Below the pieces are notes generated by a model, which was given only the letters and a program-made list of their open reading frames with translations, had not been told where the DNA came from and made no database searches. Made by a program: the position numbers and the translations under genes. Shown here piece by piece: positions 2,452-45,183 of a stretch of DNA of 64,000 bases. Source of the DNA: Prevotella sp. (GTDB taxonomy: Bacteria; Bacteroidota; Bacteroidia; Bacteroidales; Bacteroidaceae); contig JAFZRU010000031.1 of the NCBI GenBank assembly GCA_017619755.1, forward strand, positions 1 through 64,000, given 5' to 3'. The number at the start of each line of letters is the position of its first letter. The stretch's first letter is position 1.

Positions 2452-2454
2452 GAC

Positions 2455-3713: not shown

Positions 3714-3717
3714 TGCC

Positions 3718-4794: not shown

Positions 4795-4881
4795 GGGATA
4801 TGGAAAAATCCCACTTCCAAAATAGGGAAAATCCCCCCAAAGAATAGGGATGCGGCCCATTTCATATCCATCGGAAAGTCC

Positions 4882-4889
4882 TACCTTTG
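4882..4889 (+). promoter_or_regulatory. -7 element upstream of the outer-membrane barrel gene
   Basis: TACCTTTG fits TAnnTTTG and lies 37 bp before the ATG at 4927. The -33 position is only weakly matched (TTTC at about 4860), so the promoter may be of middling strength or activated. Confidence 0.5.
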
Positions 4890-4926
4890 CATCATCAGAT
4901 TAATCACCCTTAAAAGAAGAAAGAAA

Positions 4927-14706: not shown

Positions 14707-14879
14707 ATCTTTAAGACGTTTTGGAACATCAATAGTTTAATTTCTTCTTCGACGGGCAGGTTTTGGTAGTATTTCTCATAGTTTTGTGCCAACGCGCTGG
14801 TGCTGGAGGCAAGCAGGCACAACAGCAGGATTGTCATTTGTTTCATAAGGCTGATTTTGGGGTTGTTGTTTGTATTCAT
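14703..14879 (-). pseudogene. Small exported ORF, possible stump of a GH28 pectinase gene
   Basis: This 58-residue frame runs from an ATG at 14879, overlapping the acetyltransferase stop by ATGA, to a stop overlapping the adaptor ATG by ATGA. An internal ATG at 14846 (MKQMTILLLCLLASSTSALA) opens a clean signal peptide followed by AQNYEKYYQNLPVE. That mature start is, from memory, the usual beginning of Bacteroidetes GH28 polygalacturonases, which run about 450-550 residues. Here the similarity stops after about 12 residues and the tail EEIKLLMFQNVLKI is unrelated. I infer a deletion remnant now serving as a coupled leader for the pump. A genuine small periplasmic protein is possible. Confidence 0.5.
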
Positions 14880-15421
14880 TTGTGTTCTCCAATAAGTTTC
14901 TCCATCCACACCATATCATACCAACGACCGAATTTCTTCCCGCATTGGTGAAAATGTGCCACCAAGGTATAGCCCATTCGTTCGTGGAAGCGCACGCTGT
15001 CGAGGGAGAGGTATTCGTCCTCCGGCTCGATGTAGGAGATGCATGCGTTCATATTGAGGATGCCCTGCCTTCGGAGTGCCTCCTCCAACTGTTCGTACAG
15101 GAGGCTGCCGACACCTTTCCGCCGCATGGTGATGTCGAGGTAGATGCTCGTTTCCACGGCCCATTGATAGGCATCGCGCTCCTTGAAGGGACTGGCGTAG
15201 GCATATCCCACCAAGCACCCGTCATCTTCCACCACAAACCAGGGGTAGCGCGCCTGGACAGTCTCCATTCGTCGCCGGAACTCCTCTATTGTCGGGGTCT
15301 CATACTCGAAGGTGACGGCTGTGTGCTCCACGTATGGGGCATAGATGGCTCTCATAGCTTCTGCATCCTCAAGCCGAGCCTCCCTGATGGTCAAATGATG
15401 AATGTTCTCCTCCTTGGGCAT
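14876..15421 (-). CDS. GNAT N-acetyltransferase (phosphinothricin/methionine sulfoximine type)
   Basis: The predicted cytoplasmic enzyme transfers acetyl from acetyl-CoA to an amine. Family features are HLTIREARLEDAEAMRAIYA, PWFVVEDDGCLVGYAYASPF, the substrate loop AYQWAVETSIYLD, the acetyl-CoA motif RRKGVGSLLYEQLEEALRRQ and RFHERMGYTLVAHFHQCGKK, as in PAT-type acetyltransferases. The ATG at 15421 (MPKEEN) is chosen because the alternative at 15448 falls inside the -7 element at 15446-15453. The real substrate may be an amino-acid analogue, not phosphinothricin. Its stop overlaps the next ORF, so it probably heads the efflux operon. Confidence 0.85.
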   Translation of the reverse strand: MPKEENIHHLTIREARLEDAEAMRAIYAPYVEHTAVTFEYETPTIEEFRRRMETVQARYPWFVVEDDGCLVGYAYASPFKERDAYQWAVETSIYLDITMRRKGVGSLLYEQLEEALRRQGILNMNACISYIEPEDEYLSLDSVRFHERMGYTLVAHFHQCGKKFGRWYDMVWMEKLIGEHK

Positions 15422-15445
15422 GCTCTTTTCTTGTTTTTTCCGCTG

Positions 15446-15453
15446 CAAATGTA
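15446..15453 (-). promoter_or_regulatory. -7 element for the acetyltransferase-efflux operon
   Basis: The minus strand reads TACATTTG, followed by C, about 25 bp before the ATG at 15421. No clear -33 box is visible. It may drive the whole GNAT-stump-adaptor-pump unit, since no other promoter lies between them. Confidence 0.5.
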
Positions 15454-15504
15454 GTCAAAATTTTCGGATTTCATTGGCTTTAATGTTATTTTTATTTTCT
15501 TCAA

Positions 15505-15723
15505 GTGGAAGTGTTTTTGGAACACACGTATTTGGGGGACTATAGGTTCACTTTTTACCCAAGAATATTGCAGATATCAAAAAAACTATATATATTAGCA
15601 GCGACTATAACTGCTTTTGATAAGAGCAAGAAAGAGAAAGAAGAAAAAGCCAAAGAGTTTTGGGAGTATTATGAGGCTACTCAGGGTACTATTACCATCA
15701 TCGATCCTGTTGTGCTTGACTAA
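15505..15723 (+). CDS. Small hypothetical protein
   Basis: A 72-residue frame beginning MEVFLEHTYLGDYRFTFYPR, with a Lys/Glu-rich amphipathic helix (SKKEKEEKAKEFWEYYEATQ) and ending IDPVVLD. No family was recognised and no convincing promoter or ribosome site is seen. It lies 90 bp before a DUF2442 gene on the same strand. DUF2442 genes often have a DUF4160 partner, but this frame does not look like DUF4160. It may be a decayed or unrelated gene. Confidence 0.3.
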   Translation: MEVFLEHTYLGDYRFTFYPRILQISKKLYILAATITAFDKSKKEKEEKAKEFWEYYEATQGTITIIDPVVLD

Positions 15724-28392: not shown

Positions 28393-29292
28393 ATGGAAAT
28401 GAAAAAGTCAAGTTACAACAACGAGCCCAAGTACGACCACTATGTGGTGGACCGGGAGGCCCCGCTTCTGGAATATTTGCTCCAAACGCTGCAAGGACAG
28501 AGCCGGAGCAAGACGAAAGCCACGTTGCAAGGCCGCGGCATTCTGGTGGATGGGAAGTGCGTGACGCAGTTCGACTTCCCTCTCCACCCGGGCATGAAGG
28601 TTTCGGTGAGCAAGTCGAAGCGCAACAACCTGTTCACCAGCCGTCATGTGAGCATCGTGTATGAGGACAAATACCTCATCGTGGTGGACAAGGCACCCGG
28701 CATCCTGTCGATGGCCGCCGGACACTCCTCGCTGAACGTGAAGAGCGTTCTCGACGACTATTTCTCCAAGTCGAAGCAACGCTGCCATGCCCATGTGGTG
28801 CACCGGCTGGACCGCGACACAAGCGGTTTGATGGTGTATGCCAAAGACATGGAGACGGAGCAAATCCTGGAGCACAACTGGCACGACATCGTATATGACC
28901 GCCGCTACGTGGCTGTGCTTTCGGGTGAGATGGAGGACGACGGTGGCACCATCGCCAACTGGCTGAAGGACAACAAGGCCTATGTCACCTATTCCTCACC
29001 GGTGGACAATGGCGGCAAGTATGCGGTGACGCACTTCCATACCTTGGCACGCACCACGGAACATTCCTTGGTGGAGTTCAAGTTGGAGACGGGTCGCAAG
29101 AACCAAATCCGCGTGCATGCCGCCGATATGGGACACCCGGTGTGCGGCGACAAGAAATACGGCAATGGCGACGACCCGGTACACCGCCTCTGCCTCCATG
29201 CATGCCTGCTTTGTTTTCATCACCCCGTCACACGGGAGCGATTGGAATTTGAATCCCCCATCCCCTCGTCGTTCAAGAGCTTGTTCAAGTGA
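28393..29292 (+). CDS. RluA-family 23S rRNA/tRNA pseudouridine synthase
   Basis: The enzyme converts uridine to pseudouridine in RNA. About 300 residues hold an N-terminal S4-type RNA-binding domain (LLEYLLQTLQGQSRSKTKAT) and the catalytic domain with VHRLDRDTSGLMVYAKD, where the Asp of HRLDR (near residue 140) is the nucleophile. KLETGRKNQIRVHAADMGHP and GDKKYG are also family motifs. Start choice lies between 28393 (MEMKK) and 28399 (MKK); the -7 box ending at 28389 favours 28399 if the transcript is leaderless. Which RluA paralogue it is (RluD, RluC or TruC type) cannot be settled. Confidence 0.9.
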   Translation: MEMKKSSYNNEPKYDHYVVDREAPLLEYLLQTLQGQSRSKTKATLQGRGILVDGKCVTQFDFPLHPGMKVSVSKSKRNNLFTSRHVSIVYEDKYLIVVDKAPGILSMAAGHSSLNVKSVLDDYFSKSKQRCHAHVVHRLDRDTSGLMVYAKDMETEQILEHNWHDIVYDRRYVAVLSGEMEDDGGTIANWLKDNKAYVTYSSPVDNGGKYAVTHFHTLARTTEHSLVEFKLETGRKNQIRVHAADMGHPVCGDKKYGNGDDPVHRLCLHACLLCFHHPVTRERLEFESPIPSSFKSLFK

Positions 29293-31213: not shown

Positions 31214-32656
31214 TCATTTCCTTTTTCCTGGAATGTTGAAATTATTTCCCACCGTACCACTATTGGGGTTCCCAAAACGGCGACTTGGAGTAGATCTACG
31301 TTGATTGTTATAATTATTGGTGTTGCTTCTTGTACGACTTTCTGTAACTTGACGCTGATTGTTATAATTATTGGTATTGCTTCTTGTACGGCTTTCTGTA
31401 AATCTATGTTGACTGTTATAATTATTGGTATTGCTTCTTGTACGACTTTCTGAATGATTGTTATAATTATTATAATTGTAATTATTGCCAAATGTATGGT
31501 TTCCTGTAGTTACTCTTTGTTTATACCTATTGTCGTCATAACTCGCAGACTGACTGCTTGTCGTAGTTTCTTGGTGACTATCTGCACTTTTTGAATAGGG
31601 CAAGGGTGTATCCGCTTGTTGTTTTTTTGTGGAATTCCCAAGATAGACCTCCATAGAGTCGGTGCCTACTTCGATTTTCTTCTTTCCCCCTATATCGTCA
31701 GTAATCTGATATTTTCCAGGCAAAAGACTGACAGTGTTATGCCCAGGGGTCCATTCCTTGATTTGCTTATTGTTTTTAAATACTTTTGTTCCCGTAGAGA
31801 TGATGGTAACAGGAGTAGCATGCACATGCTCCACCTCATGGTTTTCTTCAAGAGAGAAACTGATTGTTTCAGTTCTTTTTGTAACATTTACTTCTTGAAC
31901 AAAGTCAATGTACCCATCTGCGATGATACGTATATGATGCATACCCTGAGGGAGATATATGTCTCCTACCTTACCATAATCGTTGTTGTCAACAATTACT
32001 CTTGCATTTTTCACATTTCCATAAACCCTCACAAGATGTGTGATAGGCTGCAATCTGACTGTCACTGTCTTAACATCCGAATTGCCAACATCCACCACAC
32101 CGTTTTGCTTTTGATAATTATCATAAGCAACAACAAATTGATGGGGTCCAGGCTCAACAAGAAACTCATAGACGCCTTCTGCTTTAGGACAGGGATTTTT
32201 ATCGAAAGTGACTTCTGCATCTTTAGGTTCGACATTCAATACGACCTTGCTTTTCAATTCATTTTTGATGGATGCCTCAATCACCACAAAATACGTTTTT
32301 CCTCCTTTCAGCCGCTTAAAACCATATTCGCTCAAATCGAGTTGCTTGGGCAAATAGTCTTTATGACTGAAATCAAGTTTCCTACTAATGGTAGGAACAT
32401 ACACAAAATAAATGCCATCTTCGTAGCCAGCCTTGACATATTGATTCTTGTTGGTGAATTCTACTCCTTGCAGATGTTCGATTTTAATTTTCAACAATGC
32501 GCAAGTGTCGCCATTGTTATCCATAACCGGATGTTCTATGGCTGTTAGATCCATCGGCTTCAGTGAGACACTTTTGATGTCGAAATATTGTGCACGGCAC
32601 GTAAAGGTGCAGATTACATAAATGCTAATCAAGAAAAAGATTTTAATGATTCTCAT
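31214..32656 (-). CDS. Exported PEGA-type protein with Asn/Arg/Thr-rich repeat tail
   Basis: A 480-residue exported protein with signal MRIIKIFFLISIYVICTF. Beta-rich domains follow, including PEGA-like stretches (TVTVRLQPITHLVRVYGNVK, DIYLPQGMHHIRIIADGYID, TISFSLEENHEV). PEGA domains usually lie in envelope proteins and tether partners. The last 110 residues are low-complexity, with three copies of an 18-residue unit around SRTRSNTNNYN and a basic end, and may be surface-exposed or bind polymer. It is the last gene of the tubulin-like operon and shares an N-terminal pattern (FDIKSVSLKP here, LTVKSVAPRP next door) with the preceding gene, so the two are probably paralogues. Confidence 0.7.
   Translation of the reverse strand: MRIIKIFFLISIYVICTFTCRAQYFDIKSVSLKPMDLTAIEHPVMDNNGDTCALLKIKIEHLQGVEFTNKNQYVKAGYEDGIYFVYVPTISRKLDFSHKDYLPKQLDLSEYGFKRLKGGKTYFVVIEASIKNELKSKVVLNVEPKDAEVTFDKNPCPKAEGVYEFLVEPGPHQFVVAYDNYQKQNGVVDVGNSDVKTVTVRLQPITHLVRVYGNVKNARVIVDNNDYGKVGDIYLPQGMHHIRIIADGYIDFVQEVNVTKRTETISFSLEENHEVEHVHATPVTIISTGTKVFKNNKQIKEWTPGHNTVSLLPGKYQITDDIGGKKKIEVGTDSMEVYLGNSTKKQQADTPLPYSKSADSHQETTTSSQSASYDDNRYKQRVTTGNHTFGNNYNYNNYNNHSESRTRSNTNNYNSQHRFTESRTRSNTNNYNNQRQVTESRTRSNTNNYNNQRRSTPSRRFGNPNSGTVGNNFNIPGKRK
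31303..31464 (-). repeat. Three tandem 54-bp repeats inside the PEGA-protein gene
   Basis: Units at 31303-31356, 31357-31410 and 31411-31464 share GTTATAATTATTGGT and TTGCTTCTTGTACG. Each encodes 18 residues in frame, so copy number can change without breaking the gene. Confidence 0.85.
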
Positions 32657-32665
32657 AATAACTAT

Positions 32666-34090
32666 TTACTTATTTTTCTTTTTAGTATATATTTTCCAAC
32701 CTAAATTAACCCCAGCAGAAAAGCCCATGCCGTTCAAACTCTGACTAAGGTCAGCTCCCAAAACAAAATGTCCAATGTCGATTTTGGCAGATACTCTTAT
32801 TCCATAATCAATCGTATGGTCTTCGATTTCATCCTTTTCCTTCGTGATGATATTTTTCAACACTTCGTCATCAGGTTCAATTACCTCATCTTTGATTCCG
32901 ATTCTCGTAATAAAACTACCATATCCACCTCCAAAAAGATTGAACATGTGTTGGTTGTATTTGCCGAAAGGCAAAGAAAACCCTATTTGCAACGGTATGT
33001 CAACATGCAACAACCATTCAAGGCTGTCTATCTCTGAATTATATGCCAGTTCGACATATTTTTCATTTTTGTTCGATTTGATAAGTCCTATACCAGCTCC
33101 CATCCTCAAGCCCATAATTCCGGCAAAATGACAGACCCAGGATGATTCAAAGGCAAAATCAAACGCATTCTCTTTGTCTATGATTTTTCCGATTTCAGGC
33201 ACCCCCATCATAGAGACACTGAAAGCAGAGTAAACAGCGTTTCTCACATTGATGCTTGTCCTGCTTCGTTCCTCCTTATGCTTCACCACTTCTTGGTCGG
33301 CTTTTTTTAAAGAGATGCGTTCTGTCATGTCATCTTTCACGACGATGGTCATCTCCTTATCATCATATAAGGGTGCCGTGACACGGATCGTGTGCTTCCC
33401 TTCGGTCAATTCCAAATTTACCACGTCGTCATAAGGAACATTATCGACAAACACGGTAGCTTCTTCCGGAGAAGCCTCAATGTTCACTTTATGCTTGCGC
33501 CCTTGAAGGGCGACAACTGTAGTGGTGGAAATTTCGTCTTCGGTTAGGCAAACAGTGCCATTTGCTCTATTGTATCCATCAGCTTCCACCTGATAGGAAT
33601 ATTCTCCCACAGGTTTGTTGACCATCGCTGTACCATCTTTGCTGACTTTTATTAGTTGTCCATCAAATTTCAGTTGGGCATCTGGAGGTAAACTGGTGAA
33701 GATGGCAGTCCGAAGATGGTTACCTGATTCAAGGATGACGTCGTAGGATTCCAATGAGTTGACCTCTATCCCATAATCATCAAAACCGACAGAGCCCAGG
33801 TCATTGCCAGCATTGTCTTTATATTTGAGTTTTTTCAACCCATTAGGAACATACACTACATATTCGCTCATCACACGCTCCACATCACCCACAGCATCAG
33901 GAAAAACGAGATTATCCACTCCTACCACCCCGACACGGACGATGGCACATTTGTTTCCTTTCGCATCATCTCGTGGATTCGTACGAGCACGAGCATCCTG
34001 TGGACGGGGGGCAACCGATTTTACGGTCAGTTGCTGTGCATAGCTTGCCAGGCAAAAACACAGCATTAAAAAAAGAAATATTCTTCTCAT
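32666..34090 (-). CDS. Exported PEGA-domain protein with C-terminal outer-membrane barrel-like region
   Basis: A 474-residue protein with signal MRRIFLFLMLCFCLASYAQQ. Residues about 20-150 match the N-terminal half of the downstream paralogue. Two PEGA-like modules follow (LPPDAQLKFDGQLIKVSKDG and EASPEEATVFVDNVPYDDVV, ending GKHTIRVTAP). From about 290 the sequence has repeated amphipathic strands (FAGIMGLRMGAGIGLIKSNK, HMFNLFGGGYGSFITRIGIK, GMGFSAGVNLGWKIY) typical of a small barrel. It is inferred to sit in the outer membrane. It is the penultimate gene of the tubulin-like operon, with a 9-bp gap to the last. Confidence 0.7.
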   Translation of the reverse strand: MRRIFLFLMLCFCLASYAQQLTVKSVAPRPQDARARTNPRDDAKGNKCAIVRVGVVGVDNLVFPDAVGDVERVMSEYVVYVPNGLKKLKYKDNAGNDLGSVGFDDYGIEVNSLESYDVILESGNHLRTAIFTSLPPDAQLKFDGQLIKVSKDGTAMVNKPVGEYSYQVEADGYNRANGTVCLTEDEISTTTVVALQGRKHKVNIEASPEEATVFVDNVPYDDVVNLELTEGKHTIRVTAPLYDDKEMTIVVKDDMTERISLKKADQEVVKHKEERSRTSINVRNAVYSAFSVSMMGVPEIGKIIDKENAFDFAFESSWVCHFAGIMGLRMGAGIGLIKSNKNEKYVELAYNSEIDSLEWLLHVDIPLQIGFSLPFGKYNQHMFNLFGGGYGSFITRIGIKDEVIEPDDEVLKNIITKEKDEIEDHTIDYGIRVSAKIDIGHFVLGADLSQSLNGMGFSAGVNLGWKIYTKKKNK

Positions 34091-34107
34091 AATTTAAATT
34101 ATTAGTT

Positions 34108-35067
34108 TCAAATGTCAAAATCTCCTAATGTAAAAACCTCGTCCTTGGGCAAAGGTTTGCCTCCCACCTTGTCGGGTTGCCATGTGCGAACGTGTATTTG
34201 TGGCTGGTTTTCGTTGGTGAAGTCCCATAGGAGGAAAAGATAACCGTCATCATGATAGCTATTGTTAGTGTAGCCCTGTAGCAATGTCACACCGTAGAAG
34301 TTGGGATTGGTGGGATGGCGCATCACCTCTATTTCATCGAACGTAATCTTGAAATAACGAGCATTCTGGAAAATACGTCTGAGTTTGTCGATATATTCTT
34401 TCTTGCTCTGCTTATTGTATTCTATCTTCTGTGAGGAAAAACCCTCGGCATGTTTCTGCATGATTACCTTTCCAGTTATGATAAGAGCATCGTCACTGAA
34501 CACCTGATTAAGAAACTTGATATCTTTTTGGTTATATGCGGTGCGGAACTGTTCCACGTAGTCGAGAATCATCTGCCGACGTCGTAGGTCAGTAAGTTCC
34601 AAGTTGCTCTTGATAACATTCATATAGAGATTCATACTGACAGAGAGATAGAAACTCACCACATTGCCTTGTTTGTCGAAACTGATGACGGCCTCTTGGT
34701 ACTCTTCCTCATTAAAAGCCCGCTCGGCAGTGGGTTTCATCATCAATGGGATGTTTCGTACTTGGTAACCCGAGTTTGTGGTAATACAGTGCTCCACAAT
34801 CTCCTCATCCGTACAGAGAAAAGGCGTGTTTTCCCACAACATGGCCATCGACCGCTGTACGTCAATGCCAACACCCATGGCGGAGAAATCAAGATTACGG
34901 TCGGCAGCCTGTGCCGCATTGATTTCGTTTAATATCTGCATGATATTACGCTCCATCTTTTGTCGTAATGCGTCACTTTCCACTCCGTCAGTAATTGTCA
35001 CAGAAATGTCAAAAGCCCGCACTACAATGGACAAGGACAAGAACAAACAAAAAATAATATTTCTCAT
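34108..35067 (-). CDS. Exported protein with NTF2/SnoaL-like domain
   Basis: About 319 residues from the ATG at 35067 (MRNIIFCLFLSLSIVVRA, a signal peptide). The start is favoured because it overlaps the upstream stop as ATGA. An N-terminal domain begins FDISVTITDGVESDALRQKM. From about residue 165 comes an NTF2-like stretch: MILDYVEQFRTAYNQKDIKF, VFSDDALIITGKVIM, FYGVTLLQGYTNNSYHDDGY. The family is not firmly known. It is predicted periplasmic and sits among other exported products of the tubulin-like operon. Confidence 0.68.
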   Translation of the reverse strand: MRNIIFCLFLSLSIVVRAFDISVTITDGVESDALRQKMERNIMQILNEINAAQAADRNLDFSAMGVGIDVQRSMAMLWENTPFLCTDEEIVEHCITTNSGYQVRNIPLMMKPTAERAFNEEEYQEAVISFDKQGNVVSFYLSVSMNLYMNVIKSNLELTDLRRRQMILDYVEQFRTAYNQKDIKFLNQVFSDDALIITGKVIMQKHAEGFSSQKIEYNKQSKKEYIDKLRRIFQNARYFKITFDEIEVMRHPTNPNFYGVTLLQGYTNNSYHDDGYLFLLWDFTNENQPQIHVRTWQPDKVGGKPLPKDEVFTLGDFDI

Positions 35068-35822
35068 AAGCTTGTAGTTTTTAACAAAAGCCAAAAGGCT
35101 CCACAATTTTTGTATCTCTTGATGTCATCTTGCTGTAATGTTCTGAGATTCACTTGTTCATTACCATCACTTCTCAACAATGCTATGATATCCCCCTCAC
35201 GGTTGTAAACGAAAAGATGGCACGCCGCGCCAACAGGCAGTGTGGCGTATTTGCCATAATCACAGAGAACACCTGTACTCTTTAGTCCTTTCACATAAGG
35301 TTCGATGTCACTGAATCGGCGAATGCACAGCATTCGTCGCTCCTCATCGGTGAGGATAATAGTTGTTGTCACATAATTGGAAGGGAGGTCGTAGATTGCA
35401 GAATCGGATGCGACCATAGTTGACCCTTCGCCAATAGGTTGAACCTTGAAGACGTTCACCTCGTTTTTGTCGCTGACGGCCATAATGTCGCTCTTCTTCA
35501 CATAGACAAAAGCACGGTAATAATCTCCACGTTGAGTCTGCAGTTGCTGACAATGTTCTTTGGCTTTCACAATGCACACCTCAATATCTTCATCGGGATA
35601 CATCTTTCGCACCCATTCTCCCACCATCGTCTCAAGAATGGCCTTTGCTCCATCCACAGCTTCAGTTGCCACTTTCATTGTTGCTTCAGCATACAGATAC
35701 TGGGCATCGCGCTTGATTTTGGCGATGCTTTTGGCCGTACTATCGCCCGATTGTGCAAAAACACCAAGGTTGGTAGCCACAAAAAACAGCATGCAGAGAA
35801 TTGTTTTGCCTTTTATTGCCAT
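35064..35822 (-). CDS. Hypothetical exported protein
   Basis: A 252-residue protein with signal peptide MAIKGKTILCMLFFVATNLG ending VFAQ. The mature part starts with a helical region (AKIKRDAQYLYAEATMKVAT) and includes QTQRGDYYRAFVYVKKSDI, somewhat like envelope proteins of the LPP20 type, but I am not sure of the family. The C-terminal half has FSDIEPYVKGLKSTGVLCDY and ends GAFWLLLKTTSL. It overlaps both neighbours, by 4 bp downstream and by 10 bp upstream, so it is tightly coupled within the operon. Function is unknown. Confidence 0.65.
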   Translation of the reverse strand: MAIKGKTILCMLFFVATNLGVFAQSGDSTAKSIAKIKRDAQYLYAEATMKVATEAVDGAKAILETMVGEWVRKMYPDEDIEVCIVKAKEHCQQLQTQRGDYYRAFVYVKKSDIMAVSDKNEVNVFKVQPIGEGSTMVASDSAIYDLPSNYVTTTIILTDEERRMLCIRRFSDIEPYVKGLKSTGVLCDYGKYATLPVGAACHLFVYNREGDIIALLRSDGNEQVNLRTLQQDDIKRYKNCGAFWLLLKTTSL

Positions 35823-36778
35823 TGTTTACGCTTTCTATTATTCGTCTCTTGTTGATAAAGGTTTTTCAAATTGTGTGTTGGGATGTAGCAGGTAAGCCGA
35901 GCCTTTAGCACTGCATTAGGATGGATGACGAAATTGTCAGGAATCACCACCGACAGCATGTGATTAAAACCCAACTCTCGGCTATGAGCGATGACAATGG
36001 CCAACAACCCATCTTCACGTTCTTCCTCAACAGCGAAAAACACTTTGAGATTCATACTATTGCAATAGTCGAGCCACTGCGACAACCGAATGTTATAATT
36101 GATGGTTTTCATCCCATAGACCGATTGCTCCACATAGAGTTGGTAGGCGGCATCTTCTGCCAAGCCATGGAAGAGATTTGCAGCCGACAAGTCCTTGTGC
36201 TCATCTTCAAAAACAGGAACGAACTTATTGCCATTTTTCCTATAAAAGGTGGCATCCTTCAGGCTTTCCAATTCGAAATGTCCTTTTTCCGACACATATA
36301 CACCTCCTCTTTCCACCAAGCCTTCAGGGACGGAAGGCTTTTGAGATCGCATCTCTGAGGCACAAATGTCCTCCTTCAACCTATTCTGTGCCTCCTCCTG
36401 TCCCATACCCATGATGAGATCGTATTGGGCCGGAAATACCACGGTAATGAAAGGCTTGTCGTCTTTGGCCCAGCTCACCTCATAGTGTTTGTCCACCAAT
36501 GAGATGGCCATGGGCATCGTATCATTCACCAAATAAAGGTCTTGAGGCCTGCCCTTTCGAAAGAACACCTTGTCGTCAGCCATTTTCATTTGCATGGAAG
36601 CTGCTCCTTTTTTCATCACAGTGGGGAAATAGTGCTCCATAAAGTCCATCACCATCAATTGTTGGCGGCTGGAAATAGACCGGACACCTTCACTGAAGAG
36701 TTTCAGCTGCTGTGCTTGTGCCGATAACGACAAGAAGACAATGGCAAGTACCACACACCAGTTTCTTTCATTTTTCAT
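35813..36778 (-). CDS. Hypothetical exported protein
   Basis: A 321-residue protein with signal MKNERNWCVVLAIVFLSLSA ending QAQ. Features are MDFMEHYFPTVMKKGAASMQ, YEVSWAKDDKPFITVVFPAQ, a central ERGGVYVSEKGHFELESLKD, and a basic C-terminus NNRKRKQWQ. No family was recognised. Its stop overlaps the next gene by 10 bp and it starts 7 bp after the zinc-ribbon gene. Predicted periplasmic. Its fixed place between the zinc-ribbon and PEGA genes suggests a shared pathway. Confidence 0.63.
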   Translation of the reverse strand: MKNERNWCVVLAIVFLSLSAQAQQLKLFSEGVRSISSRQQLMVMDFMEHYFPTVMKKGAASMQMKMADDKVFFRKGRPQDLYLVNDTMPMAISLVDKHYEVSWAKDDKPFITVVFPAQYDLIMGMGQEEAQNRLKEDICASEMRSQKPSVPEGLVERGGVYVSEKGHFELESLKDATFYRKNGNKFVPVFEDEHKDLSAANLFHGLAEDAAYQLYVEQSVYGMKTINYNIRLSQWLDYCNSMNLKVFFAVEEEREDGLLAIVIAHSRELGFNHMLSVVIPDNFVIHPNAVLKARLTCYIPTHNLKNLYQQETNNRKRKQWQ

Positions 36779-36785
36779 AAGTTTT

Positions 36786-37592
36786 TCATTTACCGATAAT
36801 GATGCTGCCTTTCACTTGATTGTTGGCATCATACCAAATGCCTTGTACAAGATGTCCTTCTGAAAATTCACCAATCACATAGTCGCCTGGCTCGGCCATT
36901 CGTCCCTTGGGGTCGCGACTATCGATGACATGGGAGGATTTGAAAACGAGACGTCCATTCACATCGTCGGGCTGTCCATTGCGTAGCGACCCCTTGAACA
37001 CGGCATAGTCCAAGTTCTTGCTACCCGTAGTAGAAACGGATGCAGGAGCTGCCTTGGGAGTTGGGGATGGGGCTGCCTTGGTAGTTGGGGTGGTTGATTG
37101 GACAGGGGCGGGAGCAGGAGGCACATTTGTAGGTGCTGCTTTTTGTTGGTTGGCCACGCGTTGGAGCGAATCGGCCACGGCTTGCAGACTGTCGCGCTCC
37201 TGCTTGGCTTTGTCTGCATCATCCTTGATACTGTCGTTCTTCAGACTATCGGCTACAGTGGCATTGATTGCTTTTTCCAAGCTGTCTTTTCTCAAACTAT
37301 CGGCCAGTTGTTCAGCACGGTCATATTGAGAGGATAATTGTTCGTCGCTGCCTGAAAGCCACCAGAGACCTCCTACGATGAGCAGTAGTGCGATGATGGC
37401 AGCTGCCAAATAAAGCCATTTGTTGCCACTTCGTTTGGGTGGTGGACATTCTCGGAGAGGTTTTCCACATTCAGGACATATCAAATCTTTGCGAGCAGGT
37501 ATCTCCTGTACTTCTTTTGACTTGCATTTCTCACATTTGTCGTTGAGGCATATTCCGTATCGGAAACGGATGCGTTCTTGTTTGATAGGCAT
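36786..37592 (-). CDS. Zinc-ribbon, single-span membrane protein with MORN-like C-terminus
   Basis: A 268-residue protein with a cytoplasmic double zinc ribbon at residues 13-50 (GICLNDKCEKCKSKE, then LICPECGKPLREC). A membrane span follows (WLYLAAAIIALLLIVGGLWW), then a helical, Asp/Ser/Lys-rich stretch with DSL repeats and a Pro/Thr/Ala linker. The last 75 residues are MORN-like (VFKGSLRNGQPDDVNGRLVF, IGEFSEGHLVQGIWYD). Topology inferred: ribbon inside, MORN part outside. It follows the tubulin-like gene by 34 bp. A direct contact with that protein's GYF-type domain is possible but only a guess. Confidence 0.75.
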   Translation of the reverse strand: MPIKQERIRFRYGICLNDKCEKCKSKEVQEIPARKDLICPECGKPLRECPPPKRSGNKWLYLAAAIIALLLIVGGLWWLSGSDEQLSSQYDRAEQLADSLRKDSLEKAINATVADSLKNDSIKDDADKAKQERDSLQAVADSLQRVANQQKAAPTNVPPAPAPVQSTTPTTKAAPSPTPKAAPASVSTTGSKNLDYAVFKGSLRNGQPDDVNGRLVFKSSHVIDSRDPKGRMAEPGDYVIGEFSEGHLVQGIWYDANNQVKGSIIIGK

Positions 37593-37626
37593 ATCTTAAA
37601 GATTGTTTTAGTTATTACATAATTGA

Positions 37627-40600
37627 TTATGCTAATGATGGAGGCGTGGTTTTTCCCACAGGTGGCAGGGGCGGCATGGCAGGTGGAGCGGGTGGTGCAA
37701 AAAGAGATTGCAATGCTGGCACATGGCTGGCTTGGGTCCAAGCGGGCAACCCCTCCATCCAGACCATGCTCGATGGGGTAAGTTGTCCACCTATCACCAT
37801 TTGACGACACAAATCAATACCATAGGGTCCATACTGTTGGCCACCGACAGCAATAAAGAGTTTAATGTCAGGAGCAGGTGCAATAGGCGGCGGTGTGGAA
37901 GCCATACCGTTTATGGGTGGTGGAGCCATTGCAGCATTTGGAGGCACTGCGGATCCTGTCACATTAGCGGTTTGGGTGGCAGCTTTGGTGGCAGCCACTT
38001 CTTCGGCATTCTCCACGACAAAGAAGGGAGGTAAGTCTCTACCATCTCCCTCGCTGTGGAGCAAAATGGCATTTCCGATGTCTGTGCTCGTGTTGCCCGT
38101 ATGCAAAAAACGGTCGTATTTCTCCTTGTAGGCGTGAAGCCAATCAATAGCACGCATAGGGAAACAGTAAGTTACAGTAATAATCGACAACTCATCCTTG
38201 CGGGGACTTTTGCGGTTTACCACAATAGTGGTGCGAGCCACACTTTGGTTAACAGATTGCTTGAATGCCTTCTCCAACTTGTCGGCGAAGCGTTTCAAAC
38301 CCTCGTTTTCTTCAGGCGACGGAATAGAGATGAGAATAGTCTTCTTGTTAATACTGGCAGTATTATGAGGACTTTTCTCACCTTCATTATTGCGGACAAC
38401 ACGTTGGAGTTGCTCAGCATTCAATTTCAAGTAAACTCCACTTTGGTTGATAATCTTTGAGGCGAACTCATTGATTTGATCTTCAGTGCGCAATTTTTGT
38501 TGTAATTGGGTCAGAATGTTGAGTCCCAGCACCTTGTTTTCGCTCTCAGCCTTTTCGTTATGTTTCGTTTTGACGATTTCTGAGAGACGCAGGTCAAAGG
38601 CATCTTTGATGATGTCGATATCGATATCATTGGCAAGTCGTCCAAAATTAATGAAGTCGCCCATAGGGAGTATCCGCTCACGTATCTGACGAGCAATATT
38701 GGGCATCTCCACCTTGTCGGTTATCAACTCCACCTCAAAGTCTCCCATCATTTCTTCTTCACTCACCTCGATGATGGCACTCTTGTAGTCTTCCAATCCC
38801 TTGTTCACCTTGCGTTGGGCGGTCACCAGTCGCTCGGTTTCATCGAGGGCATCATTGATTTTTTTGCCAAATGCTGAGATGTCGGCATCCATCTTACCTA
38901 ATTCAACATACACTCGTGCGGCGAGTTTTTTAGCAAACTCCCAAGCTACAAGCATCGTCTTTGAAACGAAGTAGTCGGTCAATATGCCCTTGTGTTCTCC
39001 AAAACGGCGTGCCCCCACACCCACCATGCGTTGAAGAATGCCCAAACGACTCCACTCTACCACATTGGCTATGCGTTCTTCTTCTATCCTTGCGTTCCCA
39101 TCGGCCTCTTCTTTCGATTTGATTTCCAAATCCTTGCGCAAATCAGACATATATTCAAGCAATAGGCGCGACACCTTCTGCAATTCCACGATAGACACGT
39201 CACCCAACTTCCACTTCTCAAACAATTCTCCTTCTATGCGATGGCGAATTTCACGTGCAATATCAGGGATGGCGCGCTCCTTGCCAAGATAGAAGTTTTC
39301 CACACCCTCGTCACGGAAATGGTTGTTGAAGAAATCATTCATAATGTCGTTGAGGTCGTTAAGGGGGTCATCCTTTTTGGCTTGGTCGGCATAACCTATA
39401 GCCTTGTCTTGCCAATAGTCCAGGAAAAGCGAGTAGTCGGCATCTGATTCAAGCACTTTCTTTTCCAATGTAAGATGCAAGTCATCAAGCATCCATGCCG
39501 ACAAATTGTCTTTGCTAAGATATTCTTTTCGATAGTCCTTGTTGCGCTCCTCATTGACGAAACCTTGGTTCTCACGCCAATTGTTGTACTTGAATTGGTA
39601 GAGTATGCTTTCACCAACAGTGTAGGTGATGTGTTTCAGTATGCGTAGTTCAGGATACATCACTCGCTTGATGCCAAAGGAGTTGATTTTTTTCGTCCGA
39701 GCAACAGCCACTCTTCCATCGGGACCTGGATTTGCCGTTTCATCGAATTCAAGTGCATAATCATCCATATTCTCAAAATTATAGGCACGAATGATGTCAC
39801 TATTCACTTGATCGTTTTCATTCACCTGAAAAATACGAGCAAAAATGTAGTCACTCACAATACGGGGGAGGTCTTCCAAAGAATTGACGGCCTCGCCATT
39901 CTCGTTGACATTGCTATAGACAGTTAAACCATCTGCTACCCCCTTTATACGGTCGTTGTACAATACGGCCGGCCCAGTTCCTGTCACATCTTGTGGTTGC
40001 CACCTACCAACCTGTAAAGCATTGAGTTCTTGCATTGCAGCGAAGCCATTGGGGTAATAGCGTCCCTGGTCCATATCGCTCTTGGGAAGAGTTTTTTCAG
40101 GAATCATCGCATAGACAGAAATCTTGGCATCGGGATAAGTTTTGCGAGCTTGTATGACAGCATCAATGATGGAGCCAGAACCTGTACCGCCACTAAGACC
40201 AGCGAAAATGTGAATGTGAGTGAGTTCGCTATCGCCTGAAATACCAGATTTGGCCTGGCAAAGTCCCACCCTTTCTCGAAGGCTGTTGACATAGCCAATC
40301 GCATTGGCAGCAAAAAGCAACCGCCCGGCACGACGTTTTTGTCCAGCCGCCTGTCCCAAAGAGCCGATGGCGGATTTCACGGCTGAGACATTGCTTACAA
40401 TACTCTTCACCAAAGGATAACTTCCTATGTGGTCAAGAATATATTCCACATCCACAGCCTTGATGTTGAGAAACTCATCACGTGTGAAGGAAGCGTTTTT
40501 GCCCATCACGCGAAAGTCGGCACGTGCTTTTCCATCCTTGGGCATCATTTCATCAGTGGAGTCGACATAAAGCAAGGCTACAGGGAGTTTGTTGCGTTCA

Positions 40601-40716
40601 TCTTCTTCGTGAAACTCCTCGAATAATCGCATCTTGAACGCACGTAGAATTTTTCCACCAGTGCCACCAAGACCCACCAGTACATGATTGCCATTTGTAA
40701 ATGTTTGTGTTTTCAT
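37627..40716 (-). CDS. Tubulin/FtsZ-like protein with C-terminal GYF-type domain
   Basis: A 1029-residue protein of the bacterial tubulin-like superfamily. Near the N-terminus is LVGLGGTGGKILRAFK (residues 13-28), and at 171-182 the tubulin phosphate loop FAGLSGGTGSGS. Both are hallmarks of GTP-binding tubulins and FtsZ. A long helical middle (about 380-880, for example EYMSDLRKDLEIKSKEEADG) is absent from FtsZ. The C-terminus has an Ala/Pro-rich linker, a GYF_2-like domain (about 952-1006: GGQQYGPYGIDLCRQMVIGG, VWMEGLPAWTQ) and a Pro-rich tail. It is far larger than FtsZ (about 400) and has no division neighbours. Predicted role: a GTP-dependent filament or membrane scaffold. Polymerisation is not shown. 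Confidence 0.8.
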   Translation of the reverse strand: MKTQTFTNGNHVLVGLGGTGGKILRAFKMRLFEEFHEEDERNKLPVALLYVDSTDEMMPKDGKARADFRVMGKNASFTRDEFLNIKAVDVEYILDHIGSYPLVKSIVSNVSAVKSAIGSLGQAAGQKRRAGRLLFAANAIGYVNSLRERVGLCQAKSGISGDSELTHIHIFAGLSGGTGSGSIIDAVIQARKTYPDAKISVYAMIPEKTLPKSDMDQGRYYPNGFAAMQELNALQVGRWQPQDVTGTGPAVLYNDRIKGVADGLTVYSNVNENGEAVNSLEDLPRIVSDYIFARIFQVNENDQVNSDIIRAYNFENMDDYALEFDETANPGPDGRVAVARTKKINSFGIKRVMYPELRILKHITYTVGESILYQFKYNNWRENQGFVNEERNKDYRKEYLSKDNLSAWMLDDLHLTLEKKVLESDADYSLFLDYWQDKAIGYADQAKKDDPLNDLNDIMNDFFNNHFRDEGVENFYLGKERAIPDIAREIRHRIEGELFEKWKLGDVSIVELQKVSRLLLEYMSDLRKDLEIKSKEEADGNARIEEERIANVVEWSRLGILQRMVGVGARRFGEHKGILTDYFVSKTMLVAWEFAKKLAARVYVELGKMDADISAFGKKINDALDETERLVTAQRKVNKGLEDYKSAIIEVSEEEMMGDFEVELITDKVEMPNIARQIRERILPMGDFINFGRLANDIDIDIIKDAFDLRLSEIVKTKHNEKAESENKVLGLNILTQLQQKLRTEDQINEFASKIINQSGVYLKLNAEQLQRVVRNNEGEKSPHNTASINKKTILISIPSPEENEGLKRFADKLEKAFKQSVNQSVARTTIVVNRKSPRKDELSIITVTYCFPMRAIDWLHAYKEKYDRFLHTGNTSTDIGNAILLHSEGDGRDLPPFFVVENAEEVAATKAATQTANVTGSAVPPNAAMAPPPINGMASTPPPIAPAPDIKLFIAVGGQQYGPYGIDLCRQMVIGGQLTPSSMVWMEGLPAWTQASHVPALQSLFAPPAPPAMPPLPPVGKTTPPSLA

Positions 40717-40767
40717 CTTGTATTTGTTTGTTATATTGTCTGTTTTTTATATGACTCACTCTCCACA

Positions 40768-41358
40768 TCATCTTCTTCTCCTTCGCATATCGATGTGCTG
40801 TCTCCTATAGGCGGGACGTTGACGAACACTTCGTGGGATTTTTGATTTCTCCATCGTTTTGATGACGATGATGGCACCCACGACAGCGAATGCAAAACAC
40901 CACATCAACCTCCTAAAGATATACCAGCGCATAAAAGAGCGCAATTCGGTTGCTATTGCATGGGGCAACTCATGTGCTCGAAAACCAGTGAACTCGCCAC
41001 CGCCAATGTAATATTGCAAAAGAGGATATTCATAGATGATTTCCTTGATGACATCATCAGCCTGACGCAAACTGACATATTCTGTTGGTGGATAACGACT
41101 TTCCACAAGTCGCTCTATCTGAACCTCATAGAAATCTGTCAATTGTATGATTTTCAGCGCCCCCATAATGAGGATACATTGCACGGACAAAAGAAGAAAC
41201 AACAATGCTCCGACTATAATACCTGACAATGTAAATTGTGCATCCTTGTACCAACCTTTGATGAGGAAAGTGAACAACCCCATAAAAAGGACTGCGATAA
41301 GAATACCCCAGAAGACACTGCTGATGGAATATCTGAAGAGATCTAATAGTGCCGACAT
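40768..41358 (-). CDS. Three-span inner-membrane protein, first gene of the tubulin-like operon
   Basis: A 196-residue protein with two N-terminal membrane spans (ISSVFWGILIAVLFMGLFTF, GIIVGALLFLLLSVQCILIM), a middle soluble loop (about 70-145: QADDVIKEIIYEYPLLQYYI), a third span (RRLMWCFAFAVVGAIIVI) and a strongly basic cytoplasmic tail ending HIDMRRRRR. No family was recognised. The gene lies 51 bp upstream of the tubulin-like gene. An anchor role for that protein, perhaps through the basic tail, is inferred from operon position alone. Confidence 0.7.
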   Translation of the reverse strand: MSALLDLFRYSISSVFWGILIAVLFMGLFTFLIKGWYKDAQFTLSGIIVGALLFLLLSVQCILIMGALKIIQLTDFYEVQIERLVESRYPPTEYVSLRQADDVIKEIIYEYPLLQYYIGGGEFTGFRAHELPHAIATELRSFMRWYIFRRLMWCFAFAVVGAIIVIKTMEKSKIPRSVRQRPAYRRQHIDMRRRRR

Positions 41359-41852: not shown

Positions 41853-41922
41853 GCGGTCTTTGTCACTTTTTCCAATACCGCATACAGACATACTTGCTCT
41901 CGGAAATGGCAACAAAGACCGT
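41853..41922. repeat. Palindromic dispersed repeat, copy A
   Basis: The ends GCGGTCTTTGT and ACAAAGACCGT form an inverted repeat (10 of 11), with CTTGCTCTCGG near the right side. A related copy lies at 42927-42997. The surrounding 41,700-42,200 stretch is otherwise non-coding as far as I can see, apart from a small hairpin TGGAC-ATAAA-GTCCA near 42,010. Confidence 0.6.
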
Positions 41923-42147
41923 AACATCGTGTCGATAAACAGCGAGCATATCAGTGTACCCCCCCCTCAAGCAGTAGATTGGCGTCCTTTCATTCCAGGC
42001 GAGCGGATGGACATAAAGTCCACCCCTACAGTTTCACCAGGATCTTGGAACAGCTTATTAAAATTATGAATATAAATAAATAATGTGAACACTCATATTT
42101 TTGAATGAAAGAATTGCAACGAACTATGAAATGGACGAAATGGATGA

Positions 42148-42213: not shown

Positions 42214-42759
42214 ATGAAAAAGATTCCGAGTTTTTTAGCATTTGCTATGATGGTTGTATTCAGCATTGCTTTCACTTCATGTGGTAATGATGATGAAGAC
42301 GATGATTTTGTAAAAAATGGAAGTCAGATTGAGATTAATGGCAAAAAACATAATGTGTTTGACACAAGTCTGTTATGGTGTGACATGGTTGCTTTATATG
42401 GTGAAACAATGATGAAAGGTCTTTATGGAGACAACTATTTGGAGCAAAATACTGCTATGTGCTCTATTGACACATCGAATGGTGATTCTTATTTATTCTC
42501 GTGGGTATCCCCTTATGAGCCGAAGAAAGGTGATGTTATCTCAAAAATGAAGGACTTTGTCATGGAGCCTGATATAATAGGACAGAAAAAAGACATTGAA
42601 TATTCTTATGGTGGCGGTACTGCAAAAATCATTGACACAAATGTTTCCAAAGAAGAAATGACAATTCAATTTGACAATTTGAAAATGGTGAAAGGCAGCG
42701 ATTCCTTCTCCTTTACAGGTCAACTAACATTCCCTTTTGATTATAGTGAACTACACTAA
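42214..42759 (+). CDS. Hypothetical lipoprotein between repeat copies
   Basis: A 181-residue protein starting MKKIPSFLAFAMMVVFSIAF with lipobox TSCG (Cys at about 23) followed by an acidic DDEDDD run, typical of surface-exported Bacteroidetes lipoproteins. The mature domain has beta-rich phrases (QIEINGKKHNVFDTSLLWCD, SYLFSWVSPYEPKKGDVISK, MTIQFDNLKMVKGSDSFSFT). No family was recognised. It has its own promoter and terminator, is AT-rich, and is flanked on both sides by the palindromic repeat, which suggests a mobile or recently inserted cassette. Confidence 0.7.
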   Translation: MKKIPSFLAFAMMVVFSIAFTSCGNDDEDDDFVKNGSQIEINGKKHNVFDTSLLWCDMVALYGETMMKGLYGDNYLEQNTAMCSIDTSNGDSYLFSWVSPYEPKKGDVISKMKDFVMEPDIIGQKKDIEYSYGGGTAKIIDTNVSKEEMTIQFDNLKMVKGSDSFSFTGQLTFPFDYSELH

Positions 42760-42926: not shown

Positions 42927-42997
42927 GCGGTCTTTGTTCAGGTTTGTCGTTACCACCGACAGGCAAGCTTGCTCTCGAGAATATGAACAAAAACCGT
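42927..42997. repeat. Palindromic dispersed repeat, copy B
   Basis: The ends GCGGTCTTTGTTCA and TGAACAAAAACCGT are an inverted repeat (12 of 14), with GCTTGCTCTCGAGAAT inside. Size, ends and the inner motif match copy A at 41853. GACCGCATCGCGGTC just before it adds a further hairpin. Confidence 0.6.
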
Positions 42998-43058
42998 ATT
43001 TCCCTCCATGGAACGATAGATTTTTCACCCGACAGGCAGAAAAATGAAATGTTTTACC

Positions 43059-43092: not shown

Positions 43093-43644
43093 ATGACACT
43101 TTCCTTCAAACTCACCGAATTGTTGAAAAAGAAGTGTGGCAGAGACATCAGTACGCCATCCGGAGTGGAAACGCTGGCTCTTGACATCGAGTCGAAAACC
43201 GACGAGCACATCGGCGTCAACACCCTCAAGCGGCTGTTGGGCATTATCAATGACGAGCGCATGCCACGCACCTCCACCCTCGACATTATCGCCCGCTATT
43301 TGGGATATGGCAACTGGAGCACCCTACAGCAGCTCGACTCGGGCAGCAATTCCGACTTTGGCCCGATGGACAACACCATCCAAACCTCCCAACTTCCCGT
43401 GGGTCAGAAGATTGTCATCACCTACCACCCCGACCGAACCGTCACCGTCCAGCATCATGGCAATGGTCATTTCGCCGTCTTGTCGTCTGTCAACAGCAAG
43501 TTGCATGTCGGTGATGAGCTACAAATATCACATCTCGTAAAATCCTTCCCCCTGCTGGTCTCTCGCGTGATAAGAGACGGCAAAGACTTGGGGGCATTCA
43601 CAGCCGGCAAGGCACAAGGCATCCATTTCTCGCTGCTGACATAA
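43093..43644 (+). CDS. Putative DNA-binding-like protein paired with a Ser/Thr kinase
   Basis: A 183-residue soluble protein. Residues about 1-80 follow a helical pattern seen at the N-terminus of Bacteroidetes regulators: FKLTELLKKKCGRDISTPSG, IGVNTLKRLLGIINDERMPR, TLDIIARYLGYGNWSTLQQL, suggesting an XRE-like helix-turn-helix. The C-terminal 85 residues are beta-rich (KIVITYHPDRTVTVQHHGNG, LHVGDELQISHLV), with no recognised family. The kinase gene starts 15 bp after its stop, so the two are co-transcribed. It may be a kinase substrate or a regulator. DNA binding is an inference from pattern only. Confidence 0.65.
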   Translation: MTLSFKLTELLKKKCGRDISTPSGVETLALDIESKTDEHIGVNTLKRLLGIINDERMPRTSTLDIIARYLGYGNWSTLQQLDSGSNSDFGPMDNTIQTSQLPVGQKIVITYHPDRTVTVQHHGNGHFAVLSSVNSKLHVGDELQISHLVKSFPLLVSRVIRDGKDLGAFTAGKAQGIHFSLLT

Positions 43645-43659
43645 CGCTCCCTCCATCCC

Positions 43660-45183
43660 ATGAGTTCATCGTCATTCTCCGACCAACAATACGACTTTTC
43701 CAGTGCCAAGAGCCTGCCTGTTTCTGGATCCACTTGCGATTGCTATCAAGTGAAGCTATACGGGAAACTGCATTTCCTAAAGCGTTTGAAAGAGGAAATG
43801 CGCACCGACCCACGCTTTTTGGCGGCACTTCGGAAGGAGTTTGAGACGGGATACCAACTCGAACACCCCCATTTAGTGAGATACCTGAACAGGGGCGATG
43901 ATTACATCCTCACAGAGTATGTCGATGGCGAAACACTCGACCACTTCGTCGTCAGCCACCCCGACTATTTCAACCACCGCGACAACGCCGACCGCTTTTT
44001 GCAGCAACTGCTAAGCGTCATCGACTATCTCCACCAGCACCAAGTGGTGCATCTCGACCTGAAACCCGCCAACATCATGGTCACCCACGTAGGGCATGAG
44101 GTAAAACTGATAGATTTGGGCTACTGCTACACAGACTGCTATACCGACACCATGGGACACACCGCAAAATATGCTGCTCCAGAACAACTTGACGGCAACA
44201 AAAAGGTGGACGCCCGTACAGACATCTATGCCATAGGACGCATCCTGCAGTCATTGCCCTGCGCACATTTTTACAAAAAGACAATCGACAAATGCACTGC
44301 CTCGCAACCTGCCGACCGATACCAAGAGGTTACCGAAATCGCTCGCGACATAAGGCGGAGAGCCATTCCCAAATGGGCTATCGCCATAATTCCAATCTTG
44401 GCAATAGTGGCGTTCATAGCATATCATTCTGCCACAGAAAAGGGGACTGACACCACCAAATTGCCTCATCCCGCCGACACCACAAAGCAAGCCCATTCTT
44501 CTACCACAGCATCCACTCCGACATCGACAGCATCTACTCCAACTTCGGCAAACACCTCTCTTCCAAAGACAACAACGACATCTAAAGAGCCAACAAGCCA
44601 ACAAGCAATCCCCCCCATACTTTCGTCTGACATTAGTCAAGAAACCACGCCTGTCATTGCACAACAGGAAAAGGTCGTAGAGCAGGAAAAAGTCATGGGA
44701 CAGGAAAAGGTAGCCGTGCAAGAAAAAGCAGTTGTTCAAGAAAAAGTAGTTGTTCAAGAAAAAGTCTCTGAACAGGAAAAGGTCTCAGAGCCGGGAAAGG
44801 TCGCTGGTCGTAAAAAAAGGGAAAACGCCAATGCTGAAGACACGCTTAAACTTAGGCAGTTGCTGAAGGAGGCATTACGCCCTTTGTATCAGAAGCATCT
44901 CGCCAAATATGAGCGTATCGCTTACGACGAGATGACCATGGAACAGACAAATCAATATGGGGAGAGTAGTGCCAATTTCGAGATAGAGGCATACAACAAT
45001 AGGCAACAAATATTCACTTCCTGCAAAAAGCATTATTCAGGTCGTCTTTTAGAGGCCGAATGGAAACAAGCACTTCTCTACTACAAACTCACGCTTTACT
45101 GGAAAATGAAACAAAACAGCCCCAATCACGAACCTTTCTACGACAACAAGAAATTCCGTTATTACGAATACGGAAACAACTGA
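43660..45183 (+). CDS. Transmembrane Ser/Thr protein kinase with QEKVxx repeats
   Basis: A 507-residue protein with a Hanks-type kinase domain at about 13-232. Seen are the ATP-binding Lys41 (LHFLKRLKEE), catalytic loop HLDLKPANIM (131-140; HLD replaces the usual HRD), IDLGY (DLG for DFG, 152-154) and APEQ (173-176). The glycine-rich loop is degenerate (PVSGSTCDCYQV). A membrane span at about 239-255 leads to a Thr/Ser/Pro-rich stretch, eight QEKVxx units and a C-terminal helical domain (residues about 395-507). Loss of the HRD Arg suggests activity without activation-loop phosphorylation. Its cognate phosphatase is not in the window. Confidence 0.85.
   Translation: MSSSSFSDQQYDFSSAKSLPVSGSTCDCYQVKLYGKLHFLKRLKEEMRTDPRFLAALRKEFETGYQLEHPHLVRYLNRGDDYILTEYVDGETLDHFVVSHPDYFNHRDNADRFLQQLLSVIDYLHQHQVVHLDLKPANIMVTHVGHEVKLIDLGYCYTDCYTDTMGHTAKYAAPEQLDGNKKVDARTDIYAIGRILQSLPCAHFYKKTIDKCTASQPADRYQEVTEIARDIRRRAIPKWAIAIIPILAIVAFIAYHSATEKGTDTTKLPHPADTTKQAHSSTTASTPTSTASTPTSANTSLPKTTTTSKEPTSQQAIPPILSSDISQETTPVIAQQEKVVEQEKVMGQEKVAVQEKAVVQEKVVVQEKVSEQEKVSEPGKVAGRKKRENANAEDTLKLRQLLKEALRPLYQKHLAKYERIAYDEMTMEQTNQYGESSANFEIEAYNNRQQIFTSCKKHYSGRLLEAEWKQALLYYKLTLYWKMKQNSPNHEPFYDNKKFRYYEYGNN
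44665..44808 (+). repeat. 18-bp tandem repeat array in the kinase gene
   Basis: Eight units of the 18-bp form CAGGAAAAGGTNNNNNN, seven clean and one degenerate, encode QEKVxx. The DNA differs between units, so the array is older than the 54-bp array in the PEGA gene. Confidence 0.8.

Follow-up and report, generated by a model that had tools for sequence, protein, structure and literature searches.

The present analysis concerns a 64-kb window of a Prevotella genome, the window being the whole stretch of DNA under study, and an operon within it that is built around a tubulin-like GTPase. The open reading frame (ORF) listing placed eight ORFs on the minus strand, running from 41358 down to 31214 and designated A, TUB and C to H (Table 1), and the intergenic gaps from A to H are 51, 34, 7, -10, -4, 17 and 9 bp, where negative values denote overlaps and the start of F is the ATG at 35067. 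A head-to-tail operon of eight genes, with gaps of 51 bp or less or with overlaps, had been proposed in an initial annotation of this DNA and was borne out, also by the conserved order described below; the annotated set was right as to these eight genes and incomplete in that a kinase gene and its partner at 43093-45183 had been missed. Hydropathy analysis yielded three transmembrane (TM) segments in A and one in C, along with N-terminal signal-like segments in E, F, G and H, that of D being recognised by eye only. From these segments the products are predicted to lie on both sides of the inner membrane, as the annotation had held, and its designation of two products as PEGA-type proteins agrees with the Pfam matches of G and H to PF08308.

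Table 1. Genes of the operon and of the divergent kinase pair (aa, amino acids; membrane and exported locations are predictions)
Gene	Position	Strand	Product	Basis
A	40768..41358	-	196-aa three-span membrane protein, basic C-terminal tail	ORF, TM scan, family alignment
TUB	37627..40716	-	1029-aa Tubulin_2 protein (FtsZl1-type), large helical insertion, C-terminal GYF_2	Pfam, alignment, structure model
C	36786..37592	-	268-aa transducer: N-terminal zinc ribbon, TM 62-80, Pro-rich linker, C-terminal MORN-type domain	
D	35813..36778	-	321-aa exported protein, C-terminal part tentatively NTF2-like	
E	35064..35822	-	252-aa exported protein	Alignment
F	34108..35067	-	319-aa exported protein, C-terminal NTF2-like domain	
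G	32666..34090	-	474-aa exported PEGA protein (variable tail)	Pfam
H	31214..32656	-	480-aa exported PEGA protein, repetitive Asn/Arg-rich C-terminus (variable tail)	Pfam
Kinase partner	43093..43644	+	183-aa protein; homologues (30-53% identity) beside kinases or operons elsewhere	
Kinase	43660..45183	+	507-aa Ser/Thr kinase (23-225), TM 235-253	Pfam (Pkinase E 2.3e-27), hydropathy (TM)

TUB matches the Pfam family Tubulin_2 (PF13809) over residues 12-371 with E 3.3e-45 and 155.3 bits against a cut-off of 27, and carries a GYF_2 domain (PF14237, E 3.7e-13); a GYF-like motif occurs in 33 of 75 tubulin ORFs and hence is not universal. For the T1 and T4 GTP-binding loops, invariant columns were seen at G15 and in the G17-G21 and G173-G181 regions across 21 aligned sequences, and among the 69 tubulins of at least 700 aa the T4 loop GGTGSG is present in all and the T1 pattern in 63. 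The AlphaFold2 (AF2) model of TUB displays the tubulin fold, with structural matches to CetZ, TubZ and FtsZ, and a C-terminal tubulin-type domain that follows a helical insertion of about 400 residues. The tubulin-like assignment of the initial annotation is therefore upheld by the family match and by the predicted structure. The window genome holds one PF13809 copy and a separate canonical FtsZ, the latter being the sole match to the cell-division model TIGR00065 at E<=1e-3 in a whole-genome search (on C15); TUB is not matched by that model at the same threshold. Two loci carry, between A and the main tubulin, a second and shorter Tubulin_2-like gene whose 774-aa product has a degenerate T1 loop (L037 7087-9411 and L039 6980-9304), as if two tubulin subunits cooperated.

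Homologues of all eight window genes were present in the first set of homologue neighbourhoods, where the order A-TUB-C-D-E-F is constant wherever the contigs show it and the tail consists mostly of the genes x1-x2, in others of PEGA genes. Six-frame profile searches provided a wider map of 120 loci, which became 111 once 3 without full-length F and 6 repeat contigs had been removed. Tubulin is held by 70 of these non-redundant loci; TUB, C, D, E and F follow one another in order at 68 of the 70, and the full order from A to F is seen at 58. Judged by the mapped loci, gene order is kept far beyond chance, and the neighbourhood check proposed by the initial annotation came out in its favour. 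Of 201 genomes from this GTDB family, 32 have a PF13809 match at E<=1e-3 (28 above the cut-off), spread over 11 of 30 genera, while F matched 67 of the 201 family genomes and 38 of 344 order genomes, many of these matches being an F domain inside a larger protein only. The named carriers, drawn from 78 named-genome loci that stem from the best 80 of 367 relatives and so lean toward close kin, include Prevotella, other Prevotellaceae, Xylanibacter brevis, Hoylesella loescheii, Bacteroides, Dysgonomonas, Paludibacteraceae and Muribaculaceae. The G+C content of the module is 0.441, against 0.564 in the left and 0.524 in the right flank; together with the uneven occurrence this supports a patchy accessory module, AT-richer than its surroundings as had been noted.

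The Pfam zinc-ribbon match of C is sub-threshold (16.0 bits against a cut-off of 29) and was accepted because its four cysteines, at positions 15, 20, 39 and 42, are invariant across 18 aligned orthologues. When the 201 family genomes were searched with a profile built from 25 sequences of the MORN domain, 27 matches fell below E 1e-20 and the one that followed lay at 6.6e-6; 20 of the 27 were members of the profile itself, and the other seven all belong to loci of this system. In the broader sets, matches at E<=1e-8 came from 8 of the 344 order genomes and from 3 of 395 phylum genomes, with the genome of the window among them. Judged by these searches, the MORN-type domain of C gives a specific profile, and the three-span first product and the zinc-ribbon/MORN membrane protein that stands third, both named in the initial annotation, rest on hydropathy, invariant cysteines and this profile. 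Tubulin loci account for 23 of the 27 family matches (in G132 the tubulin is cut by the contig end), and the remaining four comprise one with a kinase head (G065), one with a zinc-ribbon and TPR-like head (G083:C492) and two headless, lipoprotein-like proteins (G063, G127).

The same TM-MORN unit is found joined to other cytoplasmic heads. Pfam identified kinase-TM-MORN chains at L078 (Pkinase E 3e-29) and L094 (E 4.7e-28), and TIR-TM-MORN chains at L095 (TIR_2 E 3.5e-14) and L106 (E 4.6e-6, 27.6 bits against a cut-off of 28); by hydropathy the TM segments lie at 319-337, 342-360, 162-180 and 152-170, respectively, with the head before and MORN after. A kinase-TM-F fusion occurs at L081, where Pkinase (5.2e-36) and the F profile (E 2.1e-64 over positions 154-330) are separated by a TM segment seen by hydropathy. 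The kinase, TIR and kinase-F chains thus hold head, TM segment and predicted exported domain within one chain, a layout that would be expected of a receptor, and the MORN proteins encoded at L065, L066 and L105 are headless. In a quickly built tree of 108 of the 111 F proteins, from which the near-copies L037 and L039 and one short-F row were left out, head labels need 19 changes against a shuffled mean of 37.7, and tubulin presence alone needs 12, of which 8 are forced by well-supported branches; these counts are to be read with long branches, contig ends scored as absence and six rows with hand-set labels in mind. Several head candidates picked out by eye were set aside: two zinc-ribbon proteins of L075 (814 and 733 aa) read as a caspase-type peptidase and an SPFH protein, for which Pfam gave zinc ribbons only; a kinase fragment at L130, which Pfam did not confirm; and short kinase-like heads read as pseudokinases at L162, L176, L182 and L183, two of which were run in Pfam and fell below cut-off. 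On the opposite strand beside the TIR-TM-MORN operon of L095 lie genes for a 1311-aa AAA_16/kinase/TPR protein (1540-5475) and a TIR-TPR protein (14473-15720).

Among the exported proteins F is the best conserved, with a mean column identity of 53% in the family alignments, against 38% for E and 35% for D. Its match to Pfam Cds6_C reaches 24.5 bits, under the cut-off of 27, and sequence searches for remote PDB homologues of D, E and F gave nothing convincing. The E and F profiles fall within one ORF at five loci (L083, L098, L100, L101 and L102), and LPP20 is above cut-off at the N-terminus of the L083 fusion; the window's own E has no LPP20 match in Pfam, and E is linked to LPP20 only through the E-F fusion proteins of other loci. 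Full-length F occurs without tubulin at 41 of the 111 mapped loci, which is an upper bound as contig ends cut some loci short and the genome of L087 has its tubulin on a second contig, L107, and at 11 further loci outside the map (L068-L072, L074, L077 and L089-L092). On sequence evidence, then, the D-E-F envelope cassette is not tied to tubulin. At one such tubulin-less locus an FHA-domain protein (L167 5511-6185, E 6.4e-8) is encoded about 1.9 kb upstream of D and would fit phosphothreonine signalling.

The kinase pair of the window is transcribed divergently from the operon; some 1.7 kb separate it from A, and the interval holds a lipoprotein-like gene that is without homologue in the locus set. 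The C-terminal part of the kinase would be extracytoplasmic; its 183-aa partner matches no Pfam family, and a DNA-binding role is only suspected for it. Kinase homologues stand near 11 other tubulin loci of the 70, being 0.8 to 3.1 kb upstream of A/TUB on the same strand at ten (L108, L109, L112, L118, L121, L124, L131, L173, L177 and L178) and past the far end of the operon at L133. The partner accompanies most of them (L124 and L133 have a distant one only, and L112 a fragment), and the pair is also carried by the tubulin-less D-E-F loci L111, L125 and L129. The pair has no homologue in the first set of homologue neighbourhoods; in this clade it probably belongs with the genes of the operon.

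We consider it on balance probable that the operon constitutes a transmembrane signalling system, in which D, E and F sense, C transduces, the tubulin-like GTPase answers and, in some lineages, a nearby kinase modulates. The sensing of some cue, periplasmic or at the surface of the cell, would fall to D, E and F, with their NTF2- and LPP20-like character, and to a surface tail that varies, being PEGA in the window and TPR-like x1/x2 or FGE-sulfatase elsewhere. The signal would pass from D-E-F by way of the MORN domain of C, which is predicted to span the inner membrane once, to a zinc ribbon facing the cytoplasm that could recruit or switch the tubulin-like GTPase, A helping to hold the latter at the membrane. 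In this clade components of the complex may be substrates of the nearby receptor-like kinase, and the likely output would be a tubulin polymer that assembles or disassembles at the membrane in a GTP-dependent manner. The fused pairs kinase-MORN, TIR-MORN, kinase-F and E-F connect signalling heads in the cytoplasm with the exported proteins, and the division of roles given above is the simplest reading of them. The tubulin-like GTPase could be one of several interchangeable outputs. A wider proposal, which we advance only tentatively, is that of a receptor platform on which one sensor complex and the TM-MORN family take tubulin-like GTPase, kinase or TIR interchangeably, with outside signals directly setting polymerisation at the membrane. 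Two observations weigh against the signalling system so described: the T7 motif NxDxx(D/E), in a pattern confined to one stretch, is matched in 10 of 69 tubulins, and the absence of this pattern from most members argues for caution over polymerisation; and no such kinase lies near 21 other tubulin loci from the family genomes, which speaks against a general kinase role.

The initial annotation had suggested a filament or scaffold linked through the membrane to PEGA/barrel proteins of the outer membrane. As a rival reading, a tubulin filament tied through A and C to D-H would constrict, bud or stiffen the envelope. Such a machine would fit the tubulin fold, whose C-terminal domain resembles those of CetZ, TubZ and FtsZ, and the predicted partners on either side of the inner membrane, and membrane remodelling has been proposed for the FtsZl1 family in the available text of Makarova and Koonin 2010 (PMC2875224). 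The operon, the fold and the predicted products on both sides remain from the suggestion of the annotation; its mechanical link is weakened by the tubulin-less full-length F loci counted above and by the finding that this transducer can also bear a kinase or a TIR domain, enzymes and not known cytoskeletal proteins. Because D-E-F lacks a fixed tubulin and TM-MORN takes kinase and TIR heads, the evidence favours signalling over a purely mechanical scaffold, which we regard as unlikely.

It is less likely still that the operon is a conflict or immunity system, in which D-E-F and the tail would detect phage, contact toxin or envelope damage and a tubulin, kinase, TIR or zinc-ribbon head would trigger dormancy, death or a barrier. 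The TIR heads of L095 and L106, the patchy distribution and the low G+C would suit it, and tubulin-bearing GAP1 systems are predicted conflict systems in the accessible text of Kaur et al. 2020 (PMC7159879). Elsewhere in this bacterial family, Tubulin_2 genes also stand in a different, effector-like context (L049 4691-11341, L056 2954-10033 and L057 3673-9945), at 69, 3 and 6 bp, respectively, from genes with calpain, papain/lipase and weak vWA matches, the first two of which would also suit a conflict role. However, PADLOC, a resource of known anti-phage defence, left A to F and the 183-aa protein unmatched and gave generic matches only for the kinase at 43660-45183 and for TIR, the Pfam results for the operon contain no toxin or nuclease domain, and TUB has no match among phages and one distant match (28% identity) among plasmids.

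Surface housekeeping, with the operon assembling or exporting large surface proteins under tubulin or kinase regulation, would agree with the varying tail genes and with the very large secreted proteins that adjoin tubulin-less D-E-F at six loci, but it appears highly improbable, as no operon product matches a secretion or chaperone family above cut-off and the tally of large neighbours covers tubulin-less loci, one tubulin locus (L134) having a 2462-aa neighbour. These six cassettes (L157, L160, L167, L174, L182 and L183) adjoin proteins of 1071 to 2002 aa whose C-termini resemble type IX sorting signals by eye.

The closest known systems are the FtsZl1/Tubulin_2 operons and the tubulin-bearing GAP1 GTPase conflict systems. 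In the accessible text on FtsZl1 (Tubulin_2, PF13809; PMC2875224), the protein has an N-terminal GTPase domain with T1 and T4 loops and a long helical region, its operons encode membrane and exported partners and occur beside canonical FtsZ, and genes for vWA, P-loop GTPase or OmpA proteins are frequent in them, not universal. The window operon resembles them in the Pfam family, the T1/T4 GTPase domain, the helical region, the membrane and exported partners and the separate FtsZ; it differs in that its eight products have no vWA, P-loop GTPase or OmpA match in Pfam at E<=1, and neither have the kinase and its 183-aa partner. The available text of Makarova and Koonin 2010 (PMC2875224) mentions neither D-E-F nor a TM-MORN transducer, nor that kinase or TIR heads can take the place of the tubulin, and the C-terminal tubulin-type elements that the AF2 model shows for TUB could not be traced there. 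Tubulin_2 proteins are elsewhere described as FtsZ-like and sparse (PMC9871819). For the GAP1-N2 GTPase-centric systems, the accessible text of Kaur et al. 2020 (PMC7159879) describes a tubulin with a helical extension working near the membrane and, across the GAP1 class, recurrent zinc ribbons, PEGA, NTF2, GYF, FGS and kinase parts. Of these, Tubulin_2, GYF_2, PEGA and Pkinase are above cut-off here, with NTF2 and zinc ribbon below it; unlike those systems, which are marked by DO-GTPase, GAP1, FNIII and vWA parts, the operon has no FNIII, vWA or GTPase besides tubulin in Pfam, GAP1 itself not having been searched with its own profile, and the word MORN is absent from the main text of that paper (PMC7159879). 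Among literature titles and abstracts, subscription journals being outside the scope, no description of this gene set was found, nor of MORN with TIR, PEGA, kinase or Bacteroidetes.

Receptor Ser/Thr kinases with one TM segment form a general class, and the order kinase, TM segment and predicted exported domain in L078, L094, L081 and the window kinase is akin to theirs; in contrast, the window MORN transducer bears a zinc-ribbon head and the tubulin is separate. GltJ of Myxococcus gliding motility resembles the system in having zinc-ribbon and GYF domains that operate across the envelope, but its model (NCBIfam NF033761), with a cut-off of 450 bits, gives TUB 23.9 and C 20.4, and a literature search for GltJ with GYF found nothing.

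For Tubulin_2 proteins, described in 2010, no function was found in the accessible literature. Here their gene set is fixed and includes a defined transducer, which in other genomes is partnered by well-understood signalling domains, and this sharing renders tubulin function testable, since what the kinase and TIR heads sense through D-E-F should be the signal of the tubulin. If this is true, Bacteroidales of the gut and rumen would have a transmembrane receptor whose direct output is a bacterial cytoskeletal protein.

As for the variable tail, x1x2 is found at 32 of the 70 tubulin loci, PEGA at 20, FGE+PEGA at 5, x1x2+PEGA at 4 and FGE at 3, with none seen at 6. The window's G and H are alike over about their first 270 residues. 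A kinship of x1 with G and H was rejected, the x1 profiles matching them at the signal peptide only; in the wider set, x1-like proteins are matched by the x1, G and H models together, and the x1 and x2 families gave nothing convincing against Pfam.

Among the neighbouring genes tested between 29.3 and 46.4 kb, menA alone has a homologue in the first set, at one locus. The window holds no tRNA and no Rfam families, a lone Rfam match in the operon 5' region having been dismissed as chance-level, and a mobile element was rejected on these grounds along with the phage and plasmid searches given above. Comparison of 8 same-genus regions around menA located the right-hand window flank in none and no clean insertion site; the gene at 28393-29292 is common to 4 of the 8. 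A 61-nt repeat of 70% identity (41863-41923 and 42938-42998) flanks the lipoprotein-like gene at 42214-42759, and in the 3' part of gene H, at 31281-31452, 54-nt repeats encode the Asn/Arg/Tyr-rich tail.

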